IMG/VR virus record: IMGVR_UViG_3300043788_000023
Location: 62,001 to 126,000 of that record
Origin: a virus
DNA length: 64,000 nucleotides
Strand: one strand, 5' to 3'
Of the stretch, positions 3,448-64,000 are shown piece after piece (position 1 is the first letter of the stretch; each line of letters begins with the position of its first letter). The position numbers and the translations under genes were made by a program. The notes below the pieces were generated by a model. The model saw nothing but the letters and a program-made list of their open reading frames with translations. It was not told where the DNA came from and ran no database searches.

Positions 3448-3478
3448 AGATAGCCTCTCTCTTAATGGGTTCCGTAGC

Positions 3479-7918: not shown

Positions 7919-7930
7919 CTGCTCCCTCTC

Positions 7931-8167: not shown

Positions 8168-8235
8168 GGTCTTTGCTCCTTGCAAGGGGCGGGGATAGTT
8201 TCCCCTACAGAAGGGGCGGAAATACGAGTTTTGCA

Positions 8236-9821: not shown

Positions 9822-9824
9822 TCA

Positions 9825-15535: not shown

Positions 15536-15548
15536 CGAGTCTGATCCT

Positions 15549-18609: not shown

Positions 18610-18644
18610 AGGCGCACTTTGCCCTCTGCTTTAGTAGCGGAAAG

Positions 18645-19292: not shown

Positions 19293-19747
19293 ATTGTCTC
19301 GTCCTCAATCTCTTCAATGGGCTTCGGCTTGGGCTTAGACTTCTCCCGTTCGGTTACCAGAGCCTTGAGATGATCGGGTAGTTCCTCAAAGGGGACCTCG
19401 GTCGGTTCCACCTTCTTGCGCTTCTGCTCCACGGGGGTTGAGACGGGCTTGGGGGCTGGCTTAGGGTCTTCCCTCTTGGCAGCAGGCTTGGGAGCCTCCA
19501 CGGGCTTCTGAGGCGCTTTAGGAGCCACCTTGGCAGCCTGTTGGGTCATCTCTTCAATGAACCCGTTCTTCTGCATGGCGGCAAGTCCCAAAGTCGTCTG
19601 TTTCACGGCTTTAACCACTTCCCCGTTCCGGTACACCGTCAGCCTGTTGGCGTTGGATGTGTCGTGAACCAGAATATCACCAACTTTGACGAAAAATCCA
19701 AGGTCGGCGAAATGAACGGGGGACTTTACAAGGTACGATCTCTGCAT
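19289..19747 (-). CDS. Pro/Lys-rich virion-region protein, 152 aa
   Basis: The N-terminal 70 residues form a compact beta-like domain (VHFADLGFFVKVGDILVHD, NRLTVYRNGEVVKAV). A long Pro/Ala/Lys/Glu linker follows (APKAPQKPVEAPKPAAKR and repeats), then a short conserved-looking C-terminal helix (PFEELPDHLKALVTERE). The design suggests a small head protein with a flexible arm. It is the first gene after the terminator that follows the capsid gene. Confidence 0.7.
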   Translation of the reverse strand: MQRSYLVKSPVHFADLGFFVKVGDILVHDTSNANRLTVYRNGEVVKAVKQTTLGLAAMQKNGFIEEMTQQAAKVAPKAPQKPVEAPKPAAKREDPKPAPKPVSTPVEQKRKKVEPTEVPFEELPDHLKALVTEREKSKPKPKPIEEIEDETI

Positions 19748-21662: not shown

Positions 21663-23789
21663 TTAGAACTCGTCGTCGCCAAGCAGTGCGCCTGCGATGT
21701 CAAACGACGGACGCTCTGATGCGGTGACGTTCTTGAGCTTCTTGATGACCGGGGCTGCTGCCTTTGCAGGAGCAGTTGTCTTCTTTGCAGAAGACTTCGG
21801 TGCCTGAAGCACGTTGGTTTCGTCCTGCTTGACGCGCTTGAAACCGCCGTCCTCGGGCTTCTGATCTTCGATGGCTTCTGCGAACAGGTCGCCGTCGTGA
21901 TCGTTCTCGTTGTCGCGGCTGTCTGCGTCGGAGGTCTCGGACTCAAAGTGCTTGGCAGCTTCGCCAGTGAAGGACGGGACAACATCCATTCCGGCTACTT
22001 CTGCGGCGCTCTTGATCTCACCCGCGATAAGTGCGCGGAGAGGATCGGAGTCGGAACCCTGCAAGGAGAAGAAGTCTTCCATGGACGCGATCTGCGTGTC
22101 GTCCAAGCTGGCTTCCATGCTCTCTGCGGCGGACGGTGCGAAGAACTCTTCGCCGTTTCCAGCGGTGTGCTCGTCGCCTTCGTTTGCGAGTGAGGAGACC
22201 TTGTCTTCCATGTCTTCCTCGTTGAATACCTGCGCTAGATCAAGTTCCTCTTCACCCTCTTGCAGGATTTCCTGCTCAAGAGCCTTGATCGCTTCCTGCG
22301 CCTCTTCGATCTTCTCTTCAACGACCATCTTCTTCTCGTCGGAAAGAATCTCGCCAGCGTTGTCGGCTTCTGCGCCTTCGTCAATCGGCATCTCTGACGG
22401 AGCTTCCTCAATCGGAGCCTCTTCAACCGGGGCTTCCTCAATCGGGGCTTCTGCGTCCATCGGGGGAACATCGCCTGCGGGAGCGTCCATCGGCGGCATC
22501 TCGTCAGCCTTCTTTACTTCTGCGGCTGCCTTTGCTCCGCACTTGCATTCGCCGTCGCACTTGCACTCGGACTCGGCTTTCTTCGGCGCTGCTGCTGCCT
22601 TGGAAGCTGCCTTGCCAGCGCCATCGCTGTCGGACTTGTTGATCGTGTCTTCGGGACGGCCAGATGCTTCGGTCGTTGAAGAGGACGAACCTGCGTCCAT
22701 CGGCTTCGGTTCGGTGTGCTTTCCACCGCCGCAACCACGACCGTCGTTGTACGTCTCGGTCTGCGGGCCAGCGTCCTTGCGGTCGTCGGCAACTTTCGAT
22801 GCGTTCTTGGGATCACCGTTGAGTTCTTTTGCGACTGATGCTTTGAGGGAGTTGAGGTCTTCGCCTTCAGTGAGGAACTCGTTGAGTTCCGTCTTGTGGA
22901 CTTGCTTGAAGGTCTCGGCGAGCTTGGAATAGTGCGCGTTCTTTGCCGTCTGACGGAGCATCGCGCTCAGGACGCGGGTGCTGTTCTGGAGTAGGCTGGA
23001 AGCGGCACTCTTCTGCACTTCAGCCGGAGCGGTCGGGAGCATCGTCTTAGCGATAGTCCACGCAGCCGCAACACGCTGCTGTGCCTCGCGCTTGATTGCC
23101 TCGCGCTTGGTCTTGACTTCTGCCAGCTTCTCCTGAACTGAAGCCTTGGCTGGGGCTGTATTTGCCATGTTAGAGCCTTCCTTTTTCATGTCAGAACGGG
23201 CAGAAACGCCCTTCTTAACAGGGGATGCGTAGCTGTTTTTCTTCGTAACTTGGTTATTTCCAGCCTTTGCTGAAGCCATCGGGGCTTCCAGCGGGGCTGC
23301 TTCCGCGACTGGTTCTACTGCGGGTTCTGCGGAAATATCGGATGCCGGGGCTGCGGGGGCTGCTTCGGGTACTGCGGGTGCCGGGGGAAGCGAAGCGTCT
23401 GGTGCGGGGGCTGCCATATCTACCGGGGGCGCTCCCATCGGGGCACCGGGTCCCATGCCGCCAAGTTCGTCGGCTGCGGCAACTTCGCCGCCAGCGATGT
23501 CGCTGATTTCAATGTCAATTTCGCCAAGCAAGCCCTTGATCTGCTCAGACCAAGGACCGTCCTTGAACTTCTCCCACTGGGAAATAAGCTCTACGCCTTC
23601 GCGCATCTGGCGAATCTCTTCCTCAAGCTCTTCACGCTTTTCGGAGAGGAGGTCAAACTCGGGCGAGGTGCCCATGTCGGCGGGGGCGTCGGGTGCCATC
23701 TCGGGCATACCCATTAGCTGATCGTCCAGCATATCCAGATCAGCCTGCTTCTTCGCCATCGCTGCTTGCACTTTCTTCAGGTTTGCCAT
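21663..23789 (-). CDS. Putative capsid scaffold / core protein, 708 aa
   Basis: The start is taken at ATG 23789 (MANLKKVQAAMAKKQADLDM), whose AAGGTAAAGAATC leader gives a ribosome site; an ATG at 23816 would overlap the protease. Extremely acidic and Ala/Pro/Glu-rich, with helical segments at the N-terminus, around 220-330 and 480-560. It has a repetitive stretch (EAPIEEAPVEEAPIEEAP) and a Cys cluster (CKCDGECKCGAK) near residue 425. Such low-complexity, helical, acidic proteins between protease and capsid are usually the scaffold or prohead core. The C-terminal FDIAGALLGDDEF may be a capsid-binding peptide. Size is well above typical scaffolds. Confidence 0.7.
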   Translation of the reverse strand: MANLKKVQAAMAKKQADLDMLDDQLMGMPEMAPDAPADMGTSPEFDLLSEKREELEEEIRQMREGVELISQWEKFKDGPWSEQIKGLLGEIDIEISDIAGGEVAAADELGGMGPGAPMGAPPVDMAAPAPDASLPPAPAVPEAAPAAPASDISAEPAVEPVAEAAPLEAPMASAKAGNNQVTKKNSYASPVKKGVSARSDMKKEGSNMANTAPAKASVQEKLAEVKTKREAIKREAQQRVAAAWTIAKTMLPTAPAEVQKSAASSLLQNSTRVLSAMLRQTAKNAHYSKLAETFKQVHKTELNEFLTEGEDLNSLKASVAKELNGDPKNASKVADDRKDAGPQTETYNDGRGCGGGKHTEPKPMDAGSSSSTTEASGRPEDTINKSDSDGAGKAASKAAAAPKKAESECKCDGECKCGAKAAAEVKKADEMPPMDAPAGDVPPMDAEAPIEEAPVEEAPIEEAPSEMPIDEGAEADNAGEILSDEKKMVVEEKIEEAQEAIKALEQEILQEGEEELDLAQVFNEEDMEDKVSSLANEGDEHTAGNGEEFFAPSAAESMEASLDDTQIASMEDFFSLQGSDSDPLRALIAGEIKSAAEVAGMDVVPSFTGEAAKHFESETSDADSRDNENDHDGDLFAEAIEDQKPEDGGFKRVKQDETNVLQAPKSSAKKTTAPAKAAAPVIKKLKNVTASERPSFDIAGALLGDDEF

Positions 23790-23796
23790 AGATTCT

Positions 23797-24735
23797 TTAC
23801 CTTCTGCGGTCTCCAAGGAAATCAGCGTCTAGCAATGCTTCACTCAATGAAAGGTCTTCGTATTCAGTCTTTTTTGAGGCTGTCATGGCAAATTTTGAGG
23901 GTGCCGATGATTGCTTCTGCGTGTACGGGGTAGAAGGACCCACCCATTCCTCGGCAACGATGTTCCTTTTTGCCGCTCCGGGGAACGCGGGGGTCGCAAC
24001 CCAGCTTGCCTCTACGAACTTCACGCCGCCGTTAACCATGCTCTTGTGCCCGCATAGTTCAGCGATGCGGCGGGGTACGCCGTCGTCGTCCGCCAGGAAC
24101 GTACCCTTCTGAAAAGACAGGTGGTTGCAGTACGTATTGGCATCGGTGACACGGGACCCGCAATAGGAACAGATTACGAGGTCGGTGACGCATCCCATGG
24201 ACAGGTAGCGGACATGACCCTCACGGATGTCGTGGACAAGCTTCTCATGAGTGACATCGGTAGCGACGAGAATGTCGCAGTAGTAGACCCAGATTGACCC
24301 GCCCTCGGCGACGTTCACCTTGCGGAGGACGGCGTCAAGAATGTGCCCTTTGGCGTACTTGCTATTCTGGAAGTGCTCAACGAAGTTGAAGGCTCCGACG
24401 AAACTGCGATAGCTCAGCTTCAGAACCTCGTTCGTCCACGCGTCGTCGTTGTTGTTGACGAGGTGACTGGTCTCAGGCTTGATGAGGTAGTCAAACGGCT
24501 CTTCTTCAACCATGACGCTGCTCATGATCGTCACGTGTGACAGCAGGTATTTTGAAGTATCGGCAGCGATTTTCTGCGCTTCTGCTGCACGTTTCGCACT
24601 TGCCACTTTGCAGAACGGATGATCTCCATCAAGCTGGCAGCCACGGAACGCACGCTTACCAAACATCTTCTGCCAGTCCTCGTTGCTGAGAACCGGGTTT
24701 TCCAGCACTGCGTTGGCGGTTTTCTTAAAGGACAT
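23797..24735 (-). CDS. Capsid maturation (prohead) protease, 312 aa
   Basis: Motifs: SIWVYYCDILVATDVTHEKL, then EGHVRYLSMGCVTDLVICSYCG and YCNHLSFQKGTFLADDD. This is the phage maturation-protease arrangement in which a His (here H167 or H174) and the Ser of SMGC form the catalytic core, followed by a zinc-like Cys/His pair. N-terminal FKKTANAVLENP and C-terminal MTASKKTEYED carry the KTA-like motifs found in other virion proteins. Order protease, scaffold, decoration, capsid is classical. The likely role is cleaving scaffold and capsid arms during head maturation. Catalytic residue assignment is by eye. Confidence 0.72.
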   Translation of the reverse strand: MSFKKTANAVLENPVLSNEDWQKMFGKRAFRGCQLDGDHPFCKVASAKRAAEAQKIAADTSKYLLSHVTIMSSVMVEEEPFDYLIKPETSHLVNNNDDAWTNEVLKLSYRSFVGAFNFVEHFQNSKYAKGHILDAVLRKVNVAEGGSIWVYYCDILVATDVTHEKLVHDIREGHVRYLSMGCVTDLVICSYCGSRVTDANTYCNHLSFQKGTFLADDDGVPRRIAELCGHKSMVNGGVKFVEASWVATPAFPGAAKRNIVAEEWVGPSTPYTQKQSSAPSKFAMTASKKTEYEDLSLSEALLDADFLGDRRR

Positions 24736-51994: not shown

Positions 51995-53464
51995 CTAAAC
52001 TCCCACACCGTTCGCTTGGGCGTATTCCGCACCCTGCTCGTCCGCGATCTTGCGGATTTCGTCAAGGTTCTGGAAGCGCTTCATCTCGCCGTTGAGAAAA
52101 ACCGTCTCAAGGCGGTCAAACGGGTAAGGGACATCACGATTTGAATTCACCACAGTCGCCCAGCGACCACGATCCTGCTTGAGCAGTACGAGGCGTCCGC
52201 CCTTGCTTGCCTTGCCCTTGTCGGTGGACGGGTCCTTGGACACCGGGATGTCCTTGCCGTCAATCACCGCGTTGCAAAGCTTGATGGCGAACTTCTGGGT
52301 GTCACGGTTGACCTTCTGGAGTAAGCCGCCTCCCATACCGCAGACGATGTTCTCGGTTGACCAGTGTGCTGCCTTGATGGCACGAAGCAGCGAGTGGATG
52401 GAGTACAAGTCCATACCGTCTCCCCACAGGGTGCCGATGCACGGGGCAAGAACCTTGTAGCCCTTGCCGTTCTCACGGGTGCCGAAGCTCTCGGCGAAGA
52501 TGTCAAACAGTTGGGGAACCTGAGTGGTCGGATCGCCGGAGTCCGGTCGGCAAACCACCTTGCCCTCACGAGCACGAATCAGATCACGAAACTCTCGTCC
52601 GAGAATTTCCTTTGCGAAGTTGAAGATGTTGTAGGAGTCGCCCACAAGGCTGATGATGCCCTTGGGGTACTTACGCAGCGCGGCTCCGACTTGCTCCGCT
52701 TCGCCAGCGCGACCCTTGATGGTGAACATTGAGTGCTCGGTCGCCGGGACGCTGTACATTGAGACGCGAGGAGCACCGTAGTACTGGTGCGTGTAGTCCA
52801 TGCCGACCATCGTATCGCTACCGAGAAAGTTGATGCCGTGCGCTGCGCCGCCACGCCCAGCCGCCTGCACGCATTCCACGCCCCGGAAGCCGAAGTCGTG
52901 AAGCTGGAAGGGGAGAGCCGCCAAGGTGTCGGCTGTTTCCTCAAGAAACTTGCGGAAGAGTTCTTTGCACATGCGTGACTTGGTCGCAACCGTGGTGCCG
53001 TACCAAGCGTGTTGGAGAACAGTCTCCATCCACTGCCCGATTCCCGGCACCCGCTGATCTGTGGAGCGGACGGTGTAGAGAACATTGCTGACCGGAACGA
53101 TGCTGCCTTCTTTGACCGCTTTGATCTCAACCGGGAGCCGCCCGTCATACTTGTCCAGAATGTATTTCCAGTCGTCGTAGTGGAACGGGAAGCCCTCGTA
53201 GAAGTGGGCTTGGGTGTCTTCCTGCATGTCGTTCAGGTTTTGCAGGGTGAAGAACTTGCCGATGAAATGCTCAATCAAGAGACCTTGAAGCCCGAAGAAC
53301 TGGGTGTACGGAAACTCGCCGCCACGAGATTCAAAGTAGGCGAGCAACTCCTGCACAGCCGCTTCGTAAAAATGGGTGTTCTTGTAGCTGTCCGCCAAGT
53401 GGAGCGGGTTGGGGTCAAACGGTATCGGTGCAGCGTAAGACAAAGTCGGGTTATACACTTGCAT
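51995..53464 (-). CDS. nadV: Nicotinamide phosphoribosyltransferase (NAMPT), 489 aa
   Basis: Reaction: nicotinamide + PRPP to NMN + PPi. Signatures: FQLHDFGFRGVECVQ (186-200), SVPATEHSMFT (238-248) with the catalytic-type His244, LVGDSYNIF (273-281), VVCRPDSGDP (303-312) and GMGGGLLQKVNRDT (376-389). Length 489 is the full family size, nearly that of human NAMPT (491). Start ATG 53464 overlaps the NMN adenylyltransferase gene by 14 bases. With it, the phage can rebuild NAD+ from nicotinamide without host enzymes. Phage NAMPTs were reported in NAD+ reconstitution (NARP2) and in vibriophages (nadV). Confidence 0.95.
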   Translation of the reverse strand: MQVYNPTLSYAAPIPFDPNPLHLADSYKNTHFYEAAVQELLAYFESRGGEFPYTQFFGLQGLLIEHFIGKFFTLQNLNDMQEDTQAHFYEGFPFHYDDWKYILDKYDGRLPVEIKAVKEGSIVPVSNVLYTVRSTDQRVPGIGQWMETVLQHAWYGTTVATKSRMCKELFRKFLEETADTLAALPFQLHDFGFRGVECVQAAGRGGAAHGINFLGSDTMVGMDYTHQYYGAPRVSMYSVPATEHSMFTIKGRAGEAEQVGAALRKYPKGIISLVGDSYNIFNFAKEILGREFRDLIRAREGKVVCRPDSGDPTTQVPQLFDIFAESFGTRENGKGYKVLAPCIGTLWGDGMDLYSIHSLLRAIKAAHWSTENIVCGMGGGLLQKVNRDTQKFAIKLCNAVIDGKDIPVSKDPSTDKGKASKGGRLVLLKQDRGRWATVVNSNRDVPYPFDRLETVFLNGEMKRFQNLDEIRKIADEQGAEYAQANGVGV

Positions 53465-54389
53465 TTTGGGCCTCCTCTTTCTTGATGCCCTTTTCCTTCA
53501 AAAACTTCTCCAGAAGGATAAAGAGCGGCTGGTGCGTGTCAACGATGTTTCCCGCTACCAGCGCTTCGGTCTTGAACCATCTCACTTCAACAATGTCGTC
53601 GCTCGCCGTCGCACCCTGAGACGTCACGGTCGTAGAGAAGAACGAAGTCTTGACTGCACGGTCGGGCGTGTTGTAGCGCCAGTCGGGAATGAGTGCGGAG
53701 CCGATGTACTGCATCTTGTGCGGGTCAAGCGAGGTCTCTTCAAAGACTTCGCTGCGGGCGTCTGCCTCGTAGGTCGGGCGCTTCCTCTCCGCATGTCCGC
53801 CGATGAAGCGGTACTTTCCTTCTGGATCAGTGTCCTTGCGCCCGAGGAGAATGTTCACATAGTCGGTGGTGAAGATTGCAATGTCCACAGTCGGCAGAAG
53901 CACGGGCCAGAGGTGTGCGGATGCGTAGATCATCCCGGCTCGGAACTCGGACGACTCAATGACGGTGTTGGAAAGAGCGTTGCGGATGTCGGTGCCCTTG
54001 ATCTTGGAGATTTCCACCGGGAGGGTGAGTTCAACGGGGGTGTAGCGCCCTTTGTAGTGCGGGACGAATGAATCACGTCCGCCGTAGAGAGTCGCATCGC
54101 CGAACGTCACGACCGAGGAGATTGCTTTGTCAAGCTGCTCGCTCCACATCTCGTCGTTGCGCACGTCCATGAGCGGGAGCACTGTGAAATCGGGGAATTT
54201 CGCCTGAATCATCCTGCGGCGTGTTTCAAAATCAAGCGGATTGTCTTTGGTGAGTCCGGCTGGGTGAACGCCGACGAACACGATGACGCCGTTATGCCGG
54301 ATGCGTACTTGACGGAACAGTTCCATGTGTCCGTCGTGCAAGTCGTTGACTTGGAACCTGCCTACAACCACTCCGTAACTGGGTTTCAT
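53451..54389 (-). CDS. nadM: Bifunctional NMN adenylyltransferase / Nudix protein, 312 aa
   Basis: N-terminal domain: GRFQVNDLHDGH (10-21), with the HxGH nucleotidyl-transfer motif, and VEISKIKGTDIRNALS (125-140), the usual (S/T)xTxxR-like end, i.e. NadM-type NMN adenylyltransferase (NMN + ATP to NAD+). C-terminal Nudix domain about 175-295 with GGHAERKRPTYEAD and EVFEETSL; the metal-binding EVFEE core is present, but the canonical Arg is Ser213 and the upstream spacing is one residue longer. This architecture occurs in Francisella and Synechocystis (slr0787) enzymes. Start ATG 54389 overlaps the previous stop. Pairs with NAMPT for nicotinamide-to-NAD+ salvage. Confidence 0.93.
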   Translation of the reverse strand: MKPSYGVVVGRFQVNDLHDGHMELFRQVRIRHNGVIVFVGVHPAGLTKDNPLDFETRRRMIQAKFPDFTVLPLMDVRNDEMWSEQLDKAISSVVTFGDATLYGGRDSFVPHYKGRYTPVELTLPVEISKIKGTDIRNALSNTVIESSEFRAGMIYASAHLWPVLLPTVDIAIFTTDYVNILLGRKDTDPEGKYRFIGGHAERKRPTYEADARSEVFEETSLDPHKMQYIGSALIPDWRYNTPDRAVKTSFFSTTVTSQGATASDDIVEVRWFKTEALVAGNIVDTHQPLFILLEKFLKEKGIKKEEAQNASV

Positions 54390-54562
54390 CTGAAGAACTT
54401 TCCGACTACGGCAATCGCCGACAGAAAGAAGGCGGCGACGACCAGCAGTCCAAGTACAGAAGTCAGACGCACGATCACAAACGAGTGGGCGATGACCCAA
54501 TATCCCACATAGAGCAGAAATGCTGCCATCAACACAAGAAGAATGGCGAGACGTCTCATCAT
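54386..54562 (-). CDS. Two-span membrane protein, 58 aa
   Basis: ATG 54562 is preferred (MMRRLAILLVLMAAFLLYVG), with GAGATAAGT before it; the longer frame lacks a ribosome site. Two hydrophobic helices (about 4-25 and 32-54, VIVRLTSVLGLLVVAAFFLS). 4-base overlap with nadM. Unknown role; membrane microprotein in the NAD operon. Confidence 0.62.
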   Translation of the reverse strand: MMRRLAILLVLMAAFLLYVGYWVIAHSFVIVRLTSVLGLLVVAAFFLSAIAVVGKFFR

Positions 54563-54564
54563 AC

Positions 54565-54699
54565 TTATCTCCAACTCCCAAATCTTATCCGGTACGCAAT
54601 GGGGGCGCTGACGACAGCGAGAACTACTCCCAAAGCGAGGACGTACCGATGGGTGAAAATGTCCGTCCATGTAGAAACCAAGATCATCTGAGGGGGCAT
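54565..54699 (-). CDS. Small membrane protein, 44 aa
   Basis: ATG 54699 overlaps the stop of the 79-residue gene (TGATG). Product MPPQMILVSTWTDIFTHRYV, then one hydrophobic helix (LALGVVLAVVSAPIAY) and a basic tail (RIRFGSWR). Adjacent to the two-span protein; the pair could work together. Short, so moderate confidence. Confidence 0.52.
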   Translation of the reverse strand: MPPQMILVSTWTDIFTHRYVLALGVVLAVVSAPIAYRIRFGSWR

Positions 54700-54951: not shown

Positions 54952-56988
54952 TTACTTAGATGCGGCGGTCTTGGGTAAAGCGTCAATTTCTTTCAGGAAT
55001 CTGGAGGGGGCTACCCGCTGGACGTTGGCGCTGCCTTGGACGGGCACCTTCTCCGGTAGGCACAATACTAGCGCATCCTTGGCACGGGTGCAAGCTACAT
55101 AAAACAAACGCCTTTCCTCCTCTATTTCCTCGTCGGAACCCATGGAGAACCTGTTGGGGAGGCTGCCCTCGTACACGTTGGTGACGTACACCCGCTTCCA
55201 TTCCAGCCCCTTCGCGGAGTGGATCGTGCTGATGGTCACGGAGCCTTGGCGCAACTCCTCCATCTTGCGGTCGTACTGCATCTGGGTAAGCTCCCCGGTC
55301 GCAAGCTGGCGGTCGTACATGATCTTCTCAGTCTCGTCGCCCTTGGTGCGGTCAAGCGCCATCTGGAAAATCAGGTCTTCCAGCGTCATGTTGGCGTCAA
55401 TGGTGAGGGACTGAACCATGAGAATGAAGCGTTCGATGTTCTCCAGCTTGGTCTTCACCTTGTCCGGGTCTTTCTTGTACTTTTCCTTCTGGTACTTGCG
55501 GTAGTCAAACAGGGCGAGCAGCTTCTCAACGGCGGTGAGAGGCATGTCCTTGAATTCGGTGACCATGTCAACGATGCCGATGAGATTGTGCAACCGTTCG
55601 TTTTCTTTCGCGGCCTCCAACAGGTCACCGTCAAACCGCTGGTTCGCGTCAATCCTCAGCTTGTTGAGCGCAACCTCGCCCACGCCACAGCGGGGCACGC
55701 CGCAGCAGCGCATGAACGCAGTGAAGTCCTTGCGGTTGCATACCAACCGAAGATAGCCAAGGATGTCCTTCACCTCCTCGGTCTGGAGCAAGCCACGTCC
55801 GCCACGCACGATGTACGGGATACGCCGACGCACAAGCTCACCCTCTAGGTCACGCACCTGCATACCGCTGCGCACGAGGATGGCATTTTCTTTGAACAGA
55901 ATCGGGTCTTGTTTACGTGAAGCATCATTCTTGATCTGCTGGGCGATGATCTCGGCGCAGTTCTGGGGCAGGCTGGCACGGAACAGTCGCCAGTCCCCTT
56001 CCTCCTCACGGAACACGTCCATTTGAAGAGGGATGGTTTCAGTCATCGTCTTTTGAATCTTGTTGGCGAGATGCACGATCAATTTCTTGCTACGGTGATT
56101 CCGCTTGATGCGGTGCATGGTGGGCGTCGTATCACGCCAGTTCTCGCTGTAGTCCTTCAGGATTTTCGGCACGGCTCCGTTGAAGCCGTAGATGGACTGA
56201 CCCATGTCCCCGACGACGTACAGGTTCATGTTCTCCGGTGCGAGGAGACCGTTGACGAATTCCCACTGCACCGGGTTCGTGTCCTGTGCCTCGTCCATGA
56301 GGACGTGATCAAATTGCTTTTGAAGGACTGCCTTCCACTGTGGGTCGTTGCGCATCCTGCGGACGACGAGGTGGAGCATGTCGTCAAAGTCAACCACGGA
56401 GTTCTTGCGCTTCTCGTCCTCAAAAAGCTCCCAGAGGTCAAGGTACTCCTCGGTCATTGCATGATACCCGGAGTGCTGCTCAAGCGCCTTCTCATGGACA
56501 GCGTCGGTGTAATCGTCACGGAAACCCACGCCACGAGCACGATGGAAGCCGATCTTCTCCAGAACGGAGTAGGTGTAGCCGTTGCCCCGAGGTTCGCTGC
56601 GCCCGTGCTTCTCGTCGTAGCGTTCAATGATCTTCTTCATCAACTGCGATTGGTCGTATTCGTCAAGCGGTGTAACGTGCTGCTGAAGACCGAATGCTTT
56701 GGGGTTCTTGCGGATGCCGGACAGTGCGAGGGAGTGGATCGTGGAGACACGAGGCTCCTTGTCCATGGGCGTGTCAAGACCCAAGCCAAGGCGATCCTTG
56801 AGTTCTCCCGCGGCCTTATTGGTGAACGTGATGGCACAGATGCGACGGGGCTGCACGCCCTGCTCCATAAGCCAGCGGACACGCTCAGTGAGCACACGAG
56901 TCTTACCAGAGCCAGCGCCAGCGATTAGAACGGCAGGCTTACCTACCGGATGCTGTACGGCGGCTGTTTGCTCTTCGTTTAGCTGCAC
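54952..56988 (-). CDS. UvrD/PcrA-like superfamily 1A DNA helicase, 678 aa
   Basis: All SF1 motifs are present: Q motif VQLNEEQTAAVQ, motif I AGAGSGKTRVL, Ia ITFTNKAAGELK, II LMDEAQDTNPVQWEF, III VVGDMGQSIYGFNGA, IV KRNHRS, V TISTIHSAKGLEWKRVYV, VI EERRLFYVACTRAKDAL. Length equals UvrD/PcrA-type helicases (3'-5'). The GTG at 56988 is preferred since AAGGG lies at good distance; further upstream Met codons (57027, 57090) extend into the PP2C gene. Overlaps PP2C by 50 bases. Likely used in phage DNA replication, repair or recombination. Confidence 0.92.
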   Translation of the reverse strand: MQLNEEQTAAVQHPVGKPAVLIAGAGSGKTRVLTERVRWLMEQGVQPRRICAITFTNKAAGELKDRLGLGLDTPMDKEPRVSTIHSLALSGIRKNPKAFGLQQHVTPLDEYDQSQLMKKIIERYDEKHGRSEPRGNGYTYSVLEKIGFHRARGVGFRDDYTDAVHEKALEQHSGYHAMTEEYLDLWELFEDEKRKNSVVDFDDMLHLVVRRMRNDPQWKAVLQKQFDHVLMDEAQDTNPVQWEFVNGLLAPENMNLYVVGDMGQSIYGFNGAVPKILKDYSENWRDTTPTMHRIKRNHRSKKLIVHLANKIQKTMTETIPLQMDVFREEEGDWRLFRASLPQNCAEIIAQQIKNDASRKQDPILFKENAILVRSGMQVRDLEGELVRRRIPYIVRGGRGLLQTEEVKDILGYLRLVCNRKDFTAFMRCCGVPRCGVGEVALNKLRIDANQRFDGDLLEAAKENERLHNLIGIVDMVTEFKDMPLTAVEKLLALFDYRKYQKEKYKKDPDKVKTKLENIERFILMVQSLTIDANMTLEDLIFQMALDRTKGDETEKIMYDRQLATGELTQMQYDRKMEELRQGSVTISTIHSAKGLEWKRVYVTNVYEGSLPNRFSMGSDEEIEEERRLFYVACTRAKDALVLCLPEKVPVQGSANVQRVAPSRFLKEIDALPKTAASK

Positions 56989-57745
56989 GCTTTTTCCCTT
57001 CAAACCTAGCAACGAGGGCGGTTGCATTGTCGCCCGTAGGCATTGCCACAGCACGGTCAACGATGGCTTGCGCCTCAGCGCCTTCCTCAACCAGCTTGAC
57101 TATGCTCTCTGCTGCCACGGCAAAATTGTAGTGGCTGGGATCAAATACGCCGTCCGTCGCTACGATTACGAAGCTGTCTTGGTTGACCTTTACGGTATAG
57201 ATGTCAGGCACACGTGACAGCACACGGTTCAAGTGGTAGTTGCCGAGAGCACGTGCCATCTGCAACCCACCGCCGCTGAAGCTTGCGCAAAGGTAGCCGT
57301 TAAGGACGATTCCACCACGCTCCTCCGCTGCCCTGCGCTCTTCGTAATTGGTGCGGACATTGTGCTCGGGTCCGATGTTGATCTTACCCTCGGCGTCCTT
57401 GATGACGATGGGACTGTCTCCCAGAATAGCGCACGTCACCGTGTTGCCCCTGTACGGAATGTACGCGAGGGACAGCGTGGAGCCGGGGTTGAGATGCCTA
57501 GTCAGCGAGTGAAGCTTGTTGATCGCCTTCTTCAGGGCGGTGCGAGGCGTGGCTTTAGGCTCGGTAATCTCGTCGGCGAAAATGCCGGGAAACTTCTCGG
57601 ACGCAAGGTGCGACACTTGCTGACCGCCATGGCCGTCAAACACGCCGATCAGCAGCCCCTTCGGGCAGCTTACGGTGAAAAAGCGGTCTTCCTGATAACC
57701 ACGCAGACCCACGTGGGTCGCAGATGTTGTAGGTTTTATCTTCAT
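56939..57745 (-). CDS. PP2C-type protein phosphatase, 268 aa
   Basis: Ser/Thr phosphatase motifs: YQEDR (17-21), VFDGHGG (35-41), ILGDSPIVI (107-115), ARALGNYHL (164-172), ATDGVFD (196-202) and GDNAT (238-242). The metal-binding Asp residues (in DGHGG, TDG and GDN) are retained, so activity is expected; 'ALGN' has Asn where many have Asp. Start ATG 57745, overlapping the previous gene's stop by 4 bases. A basic C-terminus (KKRAAKRRANSRR) may bind nucleic acid. Known phage PP2C examples reverse host kinase signalling. Target here unknown. Confidence 0.92.
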   Translation of the reverse strand: MKIKPTTSATHVGLRGYQEDRFFTVSCPKGLLIGVFDGHGGQQVSHLASEKFPGIFADEITEPKATPRTALKKAINKLHSLTRHLNPGSTLSLAYIPYRGNTVTCAILGDSPIVIKDAEGKINIGPEHNVRTNYEERRAAEERGGIVLNGYLCASFSGGGLQMARALGNYHLNRVLSRVPDIYTVKVNQDSFVIVATDGVFDPSHYNFAVAAESIVKLVEEGAEAQAIVDRAVAMPTGDNATALVARFEGKKRAAKRRANSRRTASGR

Positions 57746-58032
57746 ATCATGTACTGCGTGACTTGGATGTTCACGTCCTTGAAAACGATGTCGTAACAGG
57801 GTTCGCACAAAACCGCGGTGTGTATGTCCCCGTCTTTCTGGGAACCATAGCCCCAGCCTTGCTTGAGCAGGAAGTGGTTGGCGAACGAAGGTTCGTGGTA
57901 GATGCTGTACGGCTCGCCCATAGGGTTCCAGCCGCCCTCTACGATCTTCTCAATCTCCACACCGCAGCGGTCGCAGGTGACCTTGTCCAATTCCTTGCGT
58001 TCGGAGTTGACGATTTTGTATGTTAGACCCAT
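57742..58032 (-). CDS. Cys-pair protein, 96 aa
   Basis: ATG 58032 (MGLTYKIVNSERKELDKVTC), preceded by GCAGTATTAGTCT; the longer frame runs through the upstream terminator and is not used. Contains VTCDRCGVEIEKIV and LCEPCYDIVFKDV, two CxxC pairs about 55 residues apart, a zinc ribbon-like arrangement with a Gly/Tyr/His-rich loop. Unknown role; coupled to PP2C. Confidence 0.68.
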   Translation of the reverse strand: MGLTYKIVNSERKELDKVTCDRCGVEIEKIVEGGWNPMGEPYSIYHEPSFANHFLLKQGWGYGSQKDGDIHTAVLCEPCYDIVFKDVNIQVTQYMI

Positions 58033-58105: not shown

Positions 58106-59221
58106 TTAGAAGCCGCTGTCTCCGCCAGAACTGCCGCCGAAACCGCTGTCGCTGGAGCCGCCAAAATCGCTGCTGGGCGGGTCGTAGCTGGGCGTGGATT
58201 CCGGTTCGGAGAAGCTGGTGTCCGGTGCCGACTGCGTAGGCTCTTCCCAAGTTGAGTCGGGAGCCGAGGGCGCAGGCGGGGTGTAGGAGGGCGCTGGTTC
58301 AACGTAAGTCGTCTGCGGTTGTTCATAGACCACAGTCGGGTTGTTCGGACGGCTGAGCATCTCGCCGACCACTAAACCAGAGACGAAGCCATCGCCACTG
58401 CCGGAGTTGTTGTTGATCACGGTCGTGTGCGAAGGCGCTGCCGCTGCGTAGCGGTAGGGGTTGGGCGGTGTGGCGTAAGACGTACGATCCGGCACGGGCG
58501 TGGTGTCGTAGTCGGTTGTCGTGGGTGTGGTCGTTTCCGTTTCCTCAGTCTTCTTGCGGAGGACGAAGTAAAGCACGAGACCGAAGATGCTCAACGTGAG
58601 CAGGACAAGGAAGAAAACCAGGAGTCCAGACGTTCCGCTGTTGTCGGTTTGCTGGGTCTGCACCGGGGCTGTGTTCTGCGCACCTGACGCTGTGTACGTG
58701 CGTGGTTGCCCGGCTGCGCCGGGTCCACGCTGTTGAGCGACGTGGAAAGAAGTCGCCTGCCCGGTCGTGCCCGTCAGAACGGCCGCGAGACCTAGTTCCC
58801 ATTGGCGGTTCTTGAAATACGTGTTGGAAAGCTGGCTGTAAGTGGACGTGATGTCAAACGCACCGTTGTAGTACGAGCCGAGAAACATGTTCTTGGCGCG
58901 GTCGTTCGGCGCAACCATGACCACGAAGAGATTCGCCTTGCGCTGTCCGTTGGTCGTCCAGCTTGGGCAGTTTAACTCAAAGCGCCGTTCCACGTCGGAA
59001 AGGCTGGAGCCATAATTGGCGATTGAATCAACGATGACGACCTTGACGTCTGCGCCTTGATTGATCAGAGTGCGGGCGGCGCTGCCGATGACCTGCGGGT
59101 TGTGGATGACCCCGGCTTGGTCAATGATGGTCGCATTGCATTGAGTCTGGGTTTGGGCTTGAGTCAGCGGGGCAAAGAGTAGAACGAGCGCCGCGACGAG
59201 CAAAGACAATCTTAGGTTCAT
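58106..59221 (-). CDS. TPM-domain (YgcG-like) membrane protein, 371 aa
   Basis: Signal peptide (MNLRLSLLVAALVLLFAPLT), TPM domain about 28-160 (NATIIDQAGVIHNPQVIGSA, RTLINQGADVKVVIVDSI), linker, one membrane helix about 206-228 (SGLLVFFLVLLTLSIFGLVL), and a Pro/Ser/Thr/Gly tail ending GGSSDSGFGGSSGGDSGF. This is the YgcG/Psb32 layout: secreted TPM domain, helix, Gly/Ser-rich tail. Known TPM proteins have acid-phosphatase-like or envelope-assembly roles. The start is well defined (AGGAGATCACC). In a phage, its presence in an envelope cassette is unusual. Confidence 0.82.
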   Translation of the reverse strand: MNLRLSLLVAALVLLFAPLTQAQTQTQCNATIIDQAGVIHNPQVIGSAARTLINQGADVKVVIVDSIANYGSSLSDVERRFELNCPSWTTNGQRKANLFVVMVAPNDRAKNMFLGSYYNGAFDITSTYSQLSNTYFKNRQWELGLAAVLTGTTGQATSFHVAQQRGPGAAGQPRTYTASGAQNTAPVQTQQTDNSGTSGLLVFFLVLLTLSIFGLVLYFVLRKKTEETETTTPTTTDYDTTPVPDRTSYATPPNPYRYAAAAPSHTTVINNNSGSGDGFVSGLVVGEMLSRPNNPTVVYEQPQTTYVEPAPSYTPPAPSAPDSTWEEPTQSAPDTSFSEPESTPSYDPPSSDFGGSSDSGFGGSSGGDSGF

Positions 59222-59322: not shown

Positions 59323-60012
59323 TTAGAGGACGAACTTGAGTCCGCCGCCGCCAGTCCACGTGGTTGCACGCAGAATGGACGAGGTAGAACCCGTCAGGTT
59401 GGACGAGAAGGACAAGGTCTGGGTGAAACGGAGGTGCTTGCGAATTCCAGTCTTGCCGAGGATGATCTCGTTGGTCACGTTGAAGGAACGATCTGCCACC
59501 GGGGGATTGATGTTGGTGATGGAAAAGCCACCGGGCAGGATGTAGTTGGCGATGATGCGATCACGGCTGAAGTTGAAGCCGCCGCCGACGAATGGACGGG
59601 CCTGAGCAACGTTCACGCTGGTAAAGAAAGAGCGGACGCCCTCTTCACCTTGCTGAATGGTCGTGAAACCTGTGACTTGGTTGGAGTAGGATGCGCCGCC
59701 GCCGACGAGCACTACCTTGAAAATCTTGAGGTAGCCTGACCCCGTCACCTTGCCCGTGTAGCCGGACGCGGTGCTGAAGCCGTTGGCAAACGATTCCTGA
59801 TAGTTGACATCGAGCAGCAGGTGCTTGGTGCTGGACTCAATACCGACGCCGACGTTGGCGCTCGGGGTGGAAGAGTTCAGGACTGAGCCTGTGCCAGTTC
59901 CGGTGATGCCGATGGTGCCGTAAGGTGCAAAAGCGCCGTTCTGTGCGTGAGCCGGGGCGACGAGCGCCAGAGCCGCGAACAGAGCGATGACTGCTAAGGT
60001 TAGAACCTTCAT
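59323..60012 (-). CDS. Outer-membrane beta-barrel-like protein, 229 aa
   Basis: Signal peptide (MKVLTLAVIALFAALALVAP, cleavage after AHA), then about ten amphipathic beta strands with aromatic ends (GIESSTKHLLLDVNYQESFA, ARPFVGGGFNFSRDRIIANY, LRFTQTLSFSSNLTGSTSS), ending in Leu (GGGGLKFVL), the usual C-terminal signal of outer-membrane barrels. Eight-strand OmpW/OprF-like size. Transcribed from P5 and closed by its own terminator, which implies strong single-gene expression. Modifies the host outer membrane; superinfection exclusion is one idea. Confidence 0.78.
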   Translation of the reverse strand: MKVLTLAVIALFAALALVAPAHAQNGAFAPYGTIGITGTGTGSVLNSSTPSANVGVGIESSTKHLLLDVNYQESFANGFSTASGYTGKVTGSGYLKIFKVVLVGGGASYSNQVTGFTTIQQGEEGVRSFFTSVNVAQARPFVGGGFNFSRDRIIANYILPGGFSITNINPPVADRSFNVTNEIILGKTGIRKHLRFTQTLSFSSNLTGSTSSILRATTWTGGGGLKFVL

Positions 60013-60106: not shown

Positions 60107-61033
60107 TTAGTTGAAGTGGGCGAATAGGAAATTCACCCCGCCGTCGTTGCTGTACACGACACCATGCTTTAGGCTCGCCACTACGATGTGGTTTCGGTCT
60201 GTGGCGATCATGTCATTGACAACCACGACGTTGAGGCTCCGACGCTTCCAAGAGTCCCCGCCGTTGGTGGAAAGGAATACGCCGTCAGTCGTCCCAGCAT
60301 AAATCGTGTTCTTGTCCACTTGGAAAAGAACCTTGGTTCGCCGTGCATCCTTGCTCGTCTTCAGCTTTTTGTACTGCTCACCGTCGTCGCTGCCTTTGTA
60401 TATGCCGGAGCACGCACCGATGTAGACCGTTGAGGGGTCGGTCTTGTCAAGGATGATGGAAAAGAAATCTGAATCGTTGATCAAGCCCTTGTCTATGGGG
60501 TGCCAAGCGGCTCCGCCGTTGTGCGTGACGTAACCCAAGTGCCAAGTCCCTGCAAAAATCTGATTGGGGTAGTTCGGGTCTACAGCTACGCTCTGGACGT
60601 TCTTGATCGTGAAAATTTTGTCCCAAGTCATCCCCTGATCCGTTGAACGATACACGCCGTCCAAACCGCCAGCGATGAGCGTATCCCCGGAGAGTGCCAA
60701 CCCACGGATGCTTTTGTGGAGCGTCAGTTCCCAAGTCTTCCCTTCATCAAGGGAACGGAAGAAGTCGCCCACATTAGGATTGTTCAAATCCCAAGCGGCG
60801 ATGTAGATGCGACCGCCGTCCGTCAGGATGCGGTCAATCACGTACTGGTTGCCGAACGAAACGAAAGCTTGCCACGAAACGCCTTGATCGTGAGAGGTGT
60901 AGAGGATTCCAGCGGAGGTTCCTAGATACAGCACGCCGGGGGCGGCTGCCAAGCTGCGGGCCTCTATGTATGGCATAGAGACCCGCGCCGGGACAAGGAA
61001 GAATACTACGAGTGCGAGGAGAAAGGCTCTCAT
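60107..61033 (-). CDS. YCF48/BNR-like beta-propeller, 308 aa
   Basis: Signal peptide or N-terminal anchor (MRAFLLALVVFFLVPARVSM), then six or so repeats with Asp/Gly-Trp blades: TSHDQGVSWQAF, RSLDEGKTWELT, RSTDQGMTWDKI, THNGGAAWHPID, STNGGDSWKRR, SNDGGVNF. This is the S-x-(D/N)-x-G-x-(S/T)-W blade of BNR/YCF48/sortilin-like propellers. Known members bind proteins or glycans. It is coupled by overlap to the OmpA-like gene. Probably exported to the periplasm or surface. Confidence 0.85.
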   Translation of the reverse strand: MRAFLLALVVFFLVPARVSMPYIEARSLAAAPGVLYLGTSAGILYTSHDQGVSWQAFVSFGNQYVIDRILTDGGRIYIAAWDLNNPNVGDFFRSLDEGKTWELTLHKSIRGLALSGDTLIAGGLDGVYRSTDQGMTWDKIFTIKNVQSVAVDPNYPNQIFAGTWHLGYVTHNGGAAWHPIDKGLINDSDFFSIILDKTDPSTVYIGACSGIYKGSDDGEQYKKLKTSKDARRTKVLFQVDKNTIYAGTTDGVFLSTNGGDSWKRRSLNVVVVNDMIATDRNHIVVASLKHGVVYSNDGGVNFLFAHFN

Positions 61034-61509
61034 TGCTCCCGAATCGTGACAGTGTTGCCCGTGGTCGCATCGGCAGTTACGCTGATGCGGGAAGGAGCAA
61101 TTCCGAACTTGGATTCACCGCTGGTGAGATAGCGACGAACGCCCTGAACGTTCTTGGCACTTCCACGAACCACGACTGTCTTGGTGGGATTGCTCTGCAA
61201 CCACAACGCCACAGTGTCAAGCGATGCTTTGCAGAGGTTGGTGACCACAGCCTTGGCTCCGAACTGGCACGATGCGTCAAACGTCGGCACAGTTGCAGGT
61301 GTGGGTGTAACCGGAACCGGAGTCGGAACCGGGGTGGGTGCCGTAACCGTCACCACTGCCGGGGGCACTGGTGTTGGAGGAGGCGGCACTGGTGTCGGTG
61401 CTATGGTCAGAACCAAAGCTGCCGTGGCAACCACGACGGCGGTAATGAAAGGTCGCCGTGCCGCCAAGTGGAGAACGCCTGAAATACTTCCCGATGGAGA
61501 ACCGTACAT
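61030..61509 (-). CDS. Membrane-anchored OmpA-C-like protein, 159 aa
   Basis: ATG 61509 (MYGSPSGSISGVLHLAARRP) is taken; the longer frame overlaps the next gene. One N-terminal membrane helix (ITAVVVATAALVLTIA) is followed by a Pro/Thr/Val linker (APTPVPPPPTPVPP) and a C-terminal domain with TVALWLQSNPTKTVVVRGSA, VRRYLTSGE and GIAPSRISVTAD. The order resembles a minimal OmpA-like peptidoglycan-binding domain (x-L..NP...V.V.G...G..R...L...G)). Overlaps both neighbours. Anchors something to the cell wall, by inference. Confidence 0.78.
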   Translation of the reverse strand: MYGSPSGSISGVLHLAARRPFITAVVVATAALVLTIAPTPVPPPPTPVPPAVVTVTAPTPVPTPVPVTPTPATVPTFDASCQFGAKAVVTNLCKASLDTVALWLQSNPTKTVVVRGSAKNVQGVRRYLTSGESKFGIAPSRISVTADATTGNTVTIREQ

Positions 61510-61510
61510 G

Positions 61511-62392
61511 TTATTGTCGCCCCTTTTTGTTGAAAAGATTCCAATCAAATGATGTGTTGAAGAAGAAATAAGCACCCGTGGACGAAAGCCCCGAGATGAA
61601 GCGGTTTTCGTGACGTACCGAAGCGCCTATCTCAGTGTACACGCCGTGGATGGGAGCAGCAAGCTTAATTCCGCCACCGCCCGCAACTTTGTTTTCCCAA
61701 TCGTTCCCCTGCGTGTCGCCGACGAATCGGATTTCAGCGTAGGGAATGAGAGCCACGCGACCGAAGCGGTGAGCGATGACGCCCTGTTGGACGTTGCCCA
61801 TGCCGATCACGTTGTTGTGCTCAATGGGTTCGATGTTGCCCGCTTCAAACCACGCAGAACCGGGGAAGCGGCTCTTCGGGTCAGCCATGGGCTGCCAGCC
61901 GAACCAGCCGTTGACGAAGCCTGTTGCTCCGCCGCGCTGCGTTGGCAGGTTGTAGGTGCCGTTGACCAGAGTCGGGCTGAGGAACTGTCCGGTTCCGACG
62001 TAGCGATCTTCGTACTGGTAGCCACCGCTGACGCTGATGACTCCATGCCGGAAGAACTTGTTGATCTTCGCTCCACCGAACGGCAGGACCATGTTGTTCC
62101 ACGGGTAGCCGTAGGTGTCGTTGCCCAGCGAAACGCTGGCGTATGGGGTGAATGTGACGGAGCCTTTGGCGGTGCTAAACAGCGTTACGCCCTGCTCCAC
62201 GTAGATTTCGGATTGAATGTTGCCATGCTCGACCGGGCTTGAGTCGCCGACTGACGTCCAAGCCTGACCGGGAAAGGCGGAAACTTGCAGCGTGCTGCCC
62301 TTGGCAGCGGGGATCGGGCCGTCCTGCGCGAAAGCCGCTGAGGCTACCGTCAGGGTTAAAGCTAGGAACAGTGCTGAGAGTACGTTTTTCAT
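61511..62392 (-). CDS. Outer-membrane beta protein with internal duplication, 293 aa
   Basis: Signal peptide (MKNVLSALFLALTLTVASAA, then FAQDG). Two clearly homologous halves, about residues 40-133 (starting FPGQAWTSVGDSSPVEHG) and 176-268 (starting FPGSAWFEAGNIEPIEHN). In each, a PYA strand, a G-(N/D)-D-T block, a (W)xNK/NNMV segment and an RxxxG end recur. Beta-barrel-type strands throughout, ending FDWNLFNKKGRQ. The C-terminal part is reminiscent of the outer-membrane end of NfrA/Pga/Bcs-type exopolysaccharide exporters, but this is not established. Strong ribosome site (AAGGAGA). Next to the glycosyltransferase. Confidence 0.78.
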   Translation of the reverse strand: MKNVLSALFLALTLTVASAAFAQDGPIPAAKGSTLQVSAFPGQAWTSVGDSSPVEHGNIQSEIYVEQGVTLFSTAKGSVTFTPYASVSLGNDTYGYPWNNMVLPFGGAKINKFFRHGVISVSGGYQYEDRYVGTGQFLSPTLVNGTYNLPTQRGGATGFVNGWFGWQPMADPKSRFPGSAWFEAGNIEPIEHNNVIGMGNVQQGVIAHRFGRVALIPYAEIRFVGDTQGNDWENKVAGGGGIKLAAPIHGVYTEIGASVRHENRFISGLSSTGAYFFFNTSFDWNLFNKKGRQ

Positions 62393-62479
62393 AAATCTCC
62401 TTGTTCCCCTTTGATGCTGTGAACATCGGGCGGGGTGCGCCCTTTTTGAAAAAAGTGCTTGGTGCCAGTAATTTTTACC

Positions 62480-63544
62480 TTAGTACCTCTTTACAGAGAA
62501 CCACGCTTCTGCGTGTTTGCGGGCGACGATGGTCTTCCAAAAACTGGTGAAGAGTACACCACAGTCCACAAAACGCATTACCACATACGCAGGGGACGCA
62601 AGTATCACATCCATCCTACGCTCGCTGATGCCGCAAAACACGGCAAGCGCGAATGTAATGAGGAAGTCGCAGCCTGTGAGCCACAGCATCCTCATCGGAT
62701 ATTTGAGCAGGAAGTACGGGAATAAACAGAGCATTACCCCGAAGAACATGCCCTCGCCCATGAGCAGCTTCCACTCAAGGTCAAGTCTTTTCCAGCCAGT
62801 AAAAATGTTGTACTTCAGACCAATCTGCCAAGTGCCAGTATACCACCGATTCATCTGTTTTACATAGTCCGTCAGCGTGCGTGGGTCCTGCGTGTAGACC
62901 TCGGCCTTCGGTCGGTACACGATCTTGCCCATATTTTGGCGGTGGACTTGGAGGGTCACGTCCATGTCTTCGACCAGCGTGTCACGGTTCCAGTCCAGCT
63001 TGGCGAACACGTCGGAGCGATAGCTGGCGGCGCATCCTGGTGCTACGTTGATCACGCCCATGTTGCTCTGCGCCTCGCGGTAGATGAAGTGCGTCACGAA
63101 GTAGCCGAAGCAGCGGTAGGCCGTGAGCCAGTTGTACGGCACACTCTTCGCCCTGCCGCACACGAGGGCGACATCCTTCCGTCCGTAGAAGCCTTTGCGG
63201 ACCTCCCGGTAGTATTCCTCGTTGACCATCGTGTCGGCGTCCATCAGCGTGATGATGTCGTAGCGCTTGATTAGGTCAAAGTGGCTACAGGCACGGGCGA
63301 TGGCGTTTGCCTTGCCGACGTTCTTCTCGTTGCGGAGCACGTTCACGCCGAACGACGCTGCGATCTCCCCGGTGCCGTCCGTGGAGCCGTCGTCAATCAC
63401 GTACACGTCAGACGACAGCATCCGGGCGTTCAAGATGCTCTTCACTGTGCGGGCGATCACCCTTGCCTCATTCATGGCGGGAACAATGACACAAAGCCTC
63501 AAGTCGGGACTCCTCAGTTCTGTTCTCAGGTCTTCGCTAATCAC
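62480..63544 (-). CDS. Processive family-2 glycosyltransferase, 354 aa
   Basis: GT2 motifs: VIDDGSTDGT (49-58), LMDADT (100-105), LVEDMDV (190-196) and QMNRWYTG (230-237), the Q-x-x-R-W mark of processive synthases such as PgaC, NodC and hyaluronan synthase. Catalytic domain about 17-240; C-terminal membrane helices around 263-280, 287-306 and 314-335. Lacks the N-terminal helices of PgaC, so it resembles NfrB/short GT2s. Start ATG 63544, overlapping the deacetylase stop by 4 bases. Predicted to polymerise a sugar (GlcNAc-like) at the host inner membrane. Confidence 0.9.
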   Translation of the reverse strand: MISEDLRTELRSPDLRLCVIVPAMNEARVIARTVKSILNARMLSSDVYVIDDGSTDGTGEIAASFGVNVLRNEKNVGKANAIARACSHFDLIKRYDIITLMDADTMVNEEYYREVRKGFYGRKDVALVCGRAKSVPYNWLTAYRCFGYFVTHFIYREAQSNMGVINVAPGCAASYRSDVFAKLDWNRDTLVEDMDVTLQVHRQNMGKIVYRPKAEVYTQDPRTLTDYVKQMNRWYTGTWQIGLKYNIFTGWKRLDLEWKLLMGEGMFFGVMLCLFPYFLLKYPMRMLWLTGCDFLITFALAVFCGISERRMDVILASPAYVVMRFVDCGVLFTSFWKTIVARKHAEAWFSVKRY

Positions 63545-64000
63545 CGAGCCACGACCGTCAACGCTCTGGCATCAAACGCGACGTTGTACACACCATCTTC
63601 GGATTCAAGCTTGACTCCCTGCTGGAAAAGGTTGACGTTATCCGGTGCAGTGATGCGCAGCGTTACGCCGTCAGGAAACGCTGGTGGTACTTCCCATGAG
63701 TAAGTCACGCCGTGCGTGTCCGTCCCCTGCTTCGCATGTTCAAATGCTTCCTGCGCCCGGAGGTAAGCTGCAACGGTTCCGAACGGTGCGATCCACAGCC
63801 CTTTATCTTCCTGCGTCTTCATGTAGTCAAGCATCCCGGTGAATGTCTCAACCGGAATAGGTTCCCAACCGCTTTTCTCATCACCGATTCCGTGAATCTG
63901 GAGCACAGTCCAAGCGTTCTTGGACATGTCGGTATCCACCCAGCTTTTGTACGTGTCAAGCGTAGTCGCTGTCATGGTGACCTGCGACGGGATGTTGTAG
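63541..64000 (-). CDS. Polysaccharide deacetylase C-terminal part (runs off right edge)
   Basis: The open frame continues past the first Met codon to the window edge (…YNIPSQVTMTATTLDTY), so the gene begins outside. Visible features: DTYKSWVDTDMSKNAWTVLQ, then IHGIGDEKSGWEPIPVETFT, the HGIGDE block of NodB-type sugar deacetylases, and GLWIAPFGTVAAYLRAQEAF, typical of their last third. After that a small beta domain (residues ~95-144 of the visible part). Likely removes acetyl groups from a nascent polysaccharide, with the GT2 next door. The catalytic N-terminal motifs lie off the window. Confidence 0.8.
   Translation of the reverse strand, partial: YNIPSQVTMTATTLDTYKSWVDTDMSKNAWTVLQIHGIGDEKSGWEPIPVETFTGMLDYMKTQEDKGLWIAPFGTVAAYLRAQEAFEHAKQGTDTHGVTYSWEVPPAFPDGVTLRITAPDNVNLFQQGVKLESEDGVYNVAFDARALTVVAR

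Follow-up and report, generated by a model that had tools for sequence, protein, structure and literature searches.

The window analysed here is a 64,000-nucleotide stretch of DNA that corresponds to bases 62001-126000 of a virus record of 169,608 bases (IMGVR_UViG_3300043788_000023, designated G000). Its right end carries a run of genes on the minus strand that continues past the window edge at position 64000. At the centre are a GT2 polysaccharide synthase, PgaC/NodC-like and of the processive type (354 aa; 62480-63544), and a NodB-type (CE4) deacetylase with a signal peptide (333 aa; 63541-64542, or L002:7541-8542). The two genes share 4 bases (GTGA), as translationally coupled genes do, in agreement with the overlap described in an initial annotation of the window; the rightward extension proposed there placed the start of the deacetylase 542 bases past the edge, at window position 64542. 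Leftward of the synthase, on the same strand, follow an outer-membrane-type beta protein with two repeats and a signal peptide (OM-beta, 293 aa; 61511-62392), a membrane-anchored 'MYG' protein of 159 aa made of a proline-rich linker and an OmpA-like C-terminal domain (61030-61509), an exported, sortilin-like BNR/Asp-box beta-propeller (60107-61033), another exported outer-membrane-type beta protein (229 aa; 59323-60012) and an exported TPM-like (YgcG-type) protein with one transmembrane (TM) segment (58106-59221). Then come two conserved phage genes, also on the minus strand: a PP2C phosphatase (56939-57808), at which the exchangeable locus ends on the left, and a flanking UvrD-type helicase (54952-57090).

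Outside the window, the cassette proceeds with a GlxA-type copper-radical oxidase lipoprotein on the minus strand (L002:8545-10242, equivalent to window 64545-66242) and a membrane-anchored GH16 glycanase on the plus strand (L002:10332-11192, equivalent to window 66332-67192). A tRNA array lies beyond the GH16 gene, and a short alanyl-tRNA-synthetase-like gene (L002:13297-14073, G000 131297-132073) is conserved at the cassette border. The initial observation stands, and the gene set, which looks complete, is larger than first described. Nearly every cassette product has a signal peptide or a membrane anchor. All frames are intact, and the catalytic motifs are complete in the GT2, NodB, the GlxA-type oxidase and GH16. 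A promoter scan of the cassette region gave matches no better than those in shuffled sequence.

The GT2 matched Pfam PF13641 (5.6e-25), and its best NCBIfam match was PgaC/IcaA (1.7e-25), the score for TIGR03937 (89.9 bits) not reaching the cut-off of 422.3. Its motifs are DD (residues 51-52), DxD (102-104), ED (192-193) and the QxxRW previously claimed for it (230-234); the D, DxD, (E)D and QxxRW positions were invariant across six members of the family. About three TM segments are predicted at the C-terminus and none at the N-terminus; since PgaC and BcsA have N-terminal TM helices that this enzyme lacks, it is uncertain whether it translocates its own chain. Among PHROG families, the best matches were phage GtrB-like families. 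Identity with phage GT2s in INPHARED was only about 23-31%. The records named Acinetobacter phage MD-2021a (CAKLQF02/CAKLQH02) were left out of these counts and rejected as phage examples, as they look like mislabelled bacterial contigs (icaB and pgaC_1-3 are annotated in them). A single-protein search of viral contigs with the GT2 gave no match, and alignment-based or flank-gene searches succeeded.

The deacetylase identification was confirmed by a PF01522 match (7.4e-17) and by the motifs TFDD, HTMTH, YPYG and QIHG; the second His of HxxxH and the DD pair were invariant across four homologs. INPHARED contained only weak matches to NodB, and none to GlxA or GH16. The oxidase has a lipobox and, when aligned to the Streptomyces secreted oxidase 4unm, carries the AA5-type cofactor and ligand residues C113, Y133, W209, Y424, H425 and H508, that is, the Cys-Tyr cofactor pair, the stacking Trp, and the Tyr-His and second His ligands. 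It scored 250.7 bits against the GlxA equivalog NF052501, not reaching the cut-off of 800, and is a relative of GlxA rather than GlxA itself. GH16 was recognised by PF00722 (3e-12) and the catalytic motif E175xDxxE. The substrates implied for GH16 (beta-1,3/1,4 glucan) and NodB (a GlcNAc polymer) appear to differ.

Single-protein searches of viral contigs and genome contigs with GlxA gave no match, and the plasmid homologs of GlxA were set aside as comparable systems, their operons not being alike. On a T4-like phage contig, a 919-aa GlxA-type oxidase adjoins a GH16-like gene without GT2 or NodB (L016:7699-11946); the oxidase-glycanase pair may therefore also move without a synthase. Separately, a galactose-oxidase-like C-terminus was seen on ORFs of approximately 910-929 aa near podovirus-like portal genes (L018:7020-9752 and L019:7961-10750). 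This podovirus-like context points to a different use, possibly an oxidase on a virion protein, and these ORFs were not retained as the same system.

The initial annotation was also confirmed for the proteins on the outer-membrane side. The OM-type beta protein is present in the cluster and has a signal peptide and an internal duplication; it matches no Pfam family, nor does the 229-aa protein. A relative with a single repeat gave an AF2 model of six long antiparallel strands (pLDDT 87), and on this model twice that strand set would be expected for the two-repeat window protein; single-sequence AF2 of the window protein itself yielded a pLDDT of 30. In a Foldseek comparison of the OM protein with the PDB, no match was significant (the best relevant one was PagP, E 0.08, TM 0.47; OmpG was also listed), so an export role for OM-beta is a guess. 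The preceding gene reported as OmpA-like is likewise present; its similarity to OmpA is weak, the Pfam scan gave no OmpA match, and its start was corrected to 61509 by homology to a bacterial cluster, L137 (MYGS...), after which the gene (61030-61509) does not overlap its neighbour. The propeller was found as described (Sortilin-Vps10 2e-13, BNR 2.4e-12), with NF045728 as the best NCBIfam match (1.9e-25, under its cut-off). The TPM match of the TPM-like protein fell below cut-off. Among the ten proteins scanned, no Pfam or NCBIfam match to PgaD or to the TPR-barrel exporter PgaA was obtained, and neither a PilZ/c-di-GMP component nor a TPR-type exporter was seen in the cassette.

The origin of the record was assessed from its large terminase, which had 75% identity with its counterpart in a virus contig of 332,300 bases (G001), 89% with the one in a short contig and 41% with the terminase of Tunturiibacter phage Tunturi_5, a jumbo myovirus of 308,711 bases isolated on an acidobacterium (PMC11924767). 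G000 and G001 are collinear (inverted) across nearly the entire record, head, tail sheath and baseplate genes included. Given this collinearity and the terminase relationships, the 169.6-kb record is, on sequence grounds, an incomplete piece of the genome of a jumbo phage related to Tunturi_5; because of this relationship, the host is probably an acidobacterium.

Several other features of this genome were observed. A NAMPT-like gene lies beside an NMN adenylyltransferase/Nudix-like gene (window 51995-54581) and is kept in G001 and Tunturi_5, which suggests a phage NAD salvage pair. A glycosyltransferase-like and a polysaccharide-pyruvyl-transferase-like gene, named by eye (L006:2604-4297, G000 22604-24297), are also present in G001 and Tunturi_5 and may form a second, fixed sugar locus. 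Adjacent giant ORFs of 2839 and 2652 aa (G000 3028-19505) are partly conserved in both relatives. Two tRNAs with an amber-reading CTA anticodon, called tRNA-Pyl by ARAGORN, lie at L003:4503-4577 and L003:4704-4782 (G000 138503-138782), with a counterpart region in G001 (L036:12202-12488), and both jumbo phages have a tmRNA (L003:7322-7644; L036:7543-7893); stop-codon recoding or suppression is possible.

Could the cassette be an artefact, that is, an assembly chimera or binned host DNA? The record is a linear metagenomic fragment, as are most of its relatives metagenomic. Where a bacterial chromosome or a junction was looked for, however, 43 kb of phage genome go on rightward of the window, syntenic with relatives. 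G000 and G001 have in common PP2C-UvrD-NMNAT on one flank and, past the tRNA array, the AlaRS-like gene on the other. The GC, GC3 and codon use of the cassette are like those of the rest of the phage, and TPM-like and 229-aa orthologs sit beside PP2C in a third contig, L056. For these reasons an assembly junction is extremely unlikely, and we discarded this explanation.

The UvrD-type helicase gene served to locate the equivalent locus in relatives. In G001, this locus is filled by a different set: a 416-aa GT2 (NodC 1.6e-32, PgaC 1.1e-31), a 349-aa protein that is exported and a low-complexity protein of OmpA-like type. In G007 (463,033 bases) the order is a small GT, GH16, a 407-aa GT2 (NodC 6.8e-45), an HlyD-like protein, a relative of the 349-aa protein and an OmpA-like protein. 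The names HlyD-like and TolC/OMF-like in this type-2 cassette were given by eye and had no support from Pfam or NCBIfam. Further relatives have the border genes and neither synthase, and Tunturi_5 lacks a GT2 of the cassette type, GH16, NodB and the oxidase. In a 455.7-kb phage, the locus contains a nucleotide-sugar-dehydrogenase fragment (L051:4776-5414), perhaps a decayed third cassette. An exported Gly/Asn/Ser-rich protein with a conserved OmpA-like C-terminus is found at the locus in most relatives, even those without a synthase (L050:7052-8608, and L051, L053, L056, L058, L060 and L067). The locus thus appears to be a site at which this jumbo-phage lineage exchanges whole host polysaccharide clusters.

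Bacterial counterparts were sought by querying 298 Terriglobales genomes with OM-beta, and five genomes were retrieved. One of them (L137) has NodB, GT2, OM-beta and the MYG/OmpA-like protein in the phage order, at 48, 69, 64 and 46% identity, respectively; the neighbours of this chromosomal cluster are panB-, hemH-, hemY- and tdh-like genes (by eye). Related arrangements were NodB-GT2-OM-beta (L138), GH16, GlxA (49%), GT2 and OM-beta (L139), and GT2-OM-beta followed some genes later by GH16 (54%), NodB (48%) and, where the contig ends, the first part of GlxA (48%) (L140). Overall (L137-L142), genes and order are the same as in the phage, with 42-69% identity for most members, and these clusters would be the family from which the phage genes came; the clusters differ in being chromosomal, and some copies add TonB-C-like and M48-like genes (by eye) that are absent from the phage. 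Type 2 is also found on chromosomes, as GT2, HlyD-like and 349-aa-type genes in L165-L169, L169 adding GH16 with the order kept. In GT2 trees, G000 pairs with L137 within the bacterial clade (support 94/99 in one tree, 89/65 in another). As both cassette types exist as Terriglobales chromosomal clusters, the jumbo phages captured whole clusters; judged by gene order and tree position, that of G000 is a capture from an acidobacterial (Terriglobales) chromosome. To our knowledge, no functional study of the Terriglobales NodB-GT2-OM-beta cluster exists.

So clear a recent bacterial ancestry would also fit functionless passenger cargo, that is, host genes acquired recently. We consider this very unlikely and rejected it: frames and catalytic residues are intact, codon use is phage-like, relatives substitute another synthase cassette, and the GT2-OM-beta core is retained across a deep viral clade (described below). 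In addition, NG86 dN/dS values relative to L137 were low (about 0.19 for GT2, 0.18 for OM-beta and 0.17 for NodB); dS was near saturation, and these values are therefore interpreted as constraint only. They suggest that the cassette genes are under purifying selection in the phage.

A search for the same block in other phages, as the initial annotation had proposed, revealed the GT2-OM-beta core in a separate viral clade. An alignment of the OM-beta family led to phage contigs with T4-like replication genes (by eye), in which a GT2 (32-38% identity) is followed by a one-repeat OM-beta and then by a small MY... membrane protein. The GT2 search gave 27 loci, near-duplicates among them, 25 with a recognisable family GT2; in 25/25, OM-beta was downstream of GT2 on the same strand, directly so except in two, where NodB and an acyltransferase-type gene lie between. 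Pfam confirmed NodB in seven of the viral-clade loci, GH16 in three and the acyltransferase in one. The contigs include records of 336 and 358 kb with terminase matches, and TerL was found in only 4/23. The 18 distinct viral-clade GT2s form one clade (98/99), separate from the bacterial one, and plasmids yielded no bacterial relatives of them. Some sister loci also contain an acyltransferase, as well as a protein with weak likeness to YkuD. The constant pairing suggests that OM-beta is the outer-membrane partner of GT2 in bacteria and phages.

These comparisons bear on whether the GT2 might instead be a transferase of single sugars, with a lipid carrier, LPS or peptidoglycan as acceptor, and with NodB, GH16 and GlxA remodelling host envelope glycans for entry, lysis or receptor modification. 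The few TM helices, the missing N-terminal ones, the GtrB-like PHROG matches, and the acyltransferase and YkuD-like protein (envelope remodelling) would suit such a role. However, QxxRW is present in every family member, the top profile matches are PgaC/NodC rather than GtrB, and the constant OM partner together with GlxA, GH16 and NodB resembles a secreted polymer system; the single-sugar role is therefore unlikely.

We consider it probable that the cassette is a captured synthase-dependent surface-polysaccharide operon, kept under purifying selection, that recoats infected cells. At the sequence level, gene content, motifs, host origin, conservation of the locus, recurrence and constraint can be regarded as established, and we infer the processive action of the synthase, the nature of the polymer, the way in which it is exported, and when and to what benefit this happens. 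In the proposed scheme, the GT2 would build a polymer from a UDP-sugar that the host supplies, most likely a beta-linked chain that contains GlcNAc, and move this chain through the inner membrane; PgaC/NodC likeness and the presence of NodB suggest GlcNAc, and GH16 suggests beta-1,3/1,4 linkages. In the periplasm, NodB would take off N-acetyl groups. The GlxA-type oxidase would either act on the growing chain by oxidising its hydroxyls or support the synthase in the manner of CslA-GlxA, and trimming or re-grafting of the chain would fall to GH16. At the outer membrane, the polymer would be carried or retained by OM-beta together with the MYG/OmpA-like protein. The most likely product is a modified beta-glycan, made by the phage and exported from the cells that it infects. 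The likeliest benefit of recoating would be blocked co-infection or adsorption to doomed cells; clumping and protection are other possible benefits.

The beneficiary might also be mainly the host, in a long-lived or lysogenic-like carrier state, through biofilm, desiccation resistance or moron-type conversion. An entire host operon was taken, the setting is soil, a ParA-like partition protein is annotated in Tunturi_5, and exchange of cassettes among relatives suits host-fitness cargo. Against this, no integrase was recognised adjoining the cassette in this incomplete fragment, and Tunturi_5 was isolated as an infecting jumbo phage (PMC11924767). We find such a role improbable, and recoating of the infected cell to the advantage of the phage is preferred.

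How does the cassette compare with known systems? The polysaccharide reading of the initial annotation is supported by the host clusters of the same order and by the different synthase cassette in sister phages; its likeness to PNAG/cellulose-type systems stands in logic, and fails for a PgaABCD or Bcs system as such. A PgaC-type GT2 and a NodB-type de-N-acetylase are shared with PgaABCD/IcaADBC/MatAB, whereas the phage lacks PgaD and the TPR-barrel PgaA, reaches 90 versus 422 bits for the PgaC model, and adds the GlxA oxidase, GH16 and a small two-repeat beta protein. In Streptomyces, the CslA-GlxA synthase complex makes cellulose (PMC11022532). The phage similarly pairs a GlxA-type copper-radical oxidase, its residues kept, with a GT2 synthase, but CslA is a cellulose-synthase-like protein of a Gram-positive bacterium, and the phage has a short NodC/PgaC-like GT2, NodB and an outer-membrane protein. 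In O-antigen gtr clusters and Staphylococcus jumbo phages, a phage GT2 also changes, or is presumed to change, the host surface; by GT2 comparison alone, identity is about 23-31%, and we saw no report of a deacetylase, oxidase, glycanase or OM partner there. The Tunturi phage paper reports single glycosyltransferases only (PMC11924767).

The closest viral precedent would be hyaluronan/chitin synthesis in chloroviruses. There, a GT2 synthase (PBCV-1/CVK2) coats the infected cell, and related viruses switch between hyaluronan and chitin by genetic rearrangement (PMC5408694), just as sister phages hold alternative synthase cassettes at one locus, the phage polymer being predicted from genes. Chloroviruses differ in being eukaryotic algal viruses, with a single synthase and precursor enzymes encoded outside an operon, and without a deacetylase, oxidase, glycanase or outer-membrane module. 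Infected cells become covered by their hyaluronan, and at 4 h other viruses were inhibited in attaching, with no role proven (PMC5408694), which calls for like caution on the benefit of the phage cassette.

Enzymes that break down surface polysaccharides are a familiar feature of phages. The phages described here appear to make such a polymer, with genes for synthesis, modification and export together. In the full-text literature searched, whose coverage is incomplete, we found no tailed phage described with such a cassette, in line with the earlier remark that no phage system with this gene set was known; the matches concern depolymerases. The swapping of cassettes among relatives, and the presence of a similar core in phages that are not related to them, suggest that recoating of infected cells is common to many phages. 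A wider proposal, plausible yet held tentatively, is that large tailed phages widely encode an unrecognised polysaccharide system of a GT2 and an ever-present small OM-beta, the latter a new family of secretion partners, with deacetylase, oxidase, glycanase and acyltransferase as options and a swap locus in the jumbo phages of Acidobacteriota; a matrix specified by the phage would then coat infected cells and exclude competitors or keep the brood together. If true, phages would have a new means of excluding superinfection or controlling the matrix, and would trade whole host glycan clusters. It would also provide a bacterial counterpart of chlorovirus hyaluronan, and a testable bacterial model for why chloroviruses make it. 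The cassette further points to an uncharacterised family of polysaccharide clusters in Acidobacteriota, which are abundant in soil.
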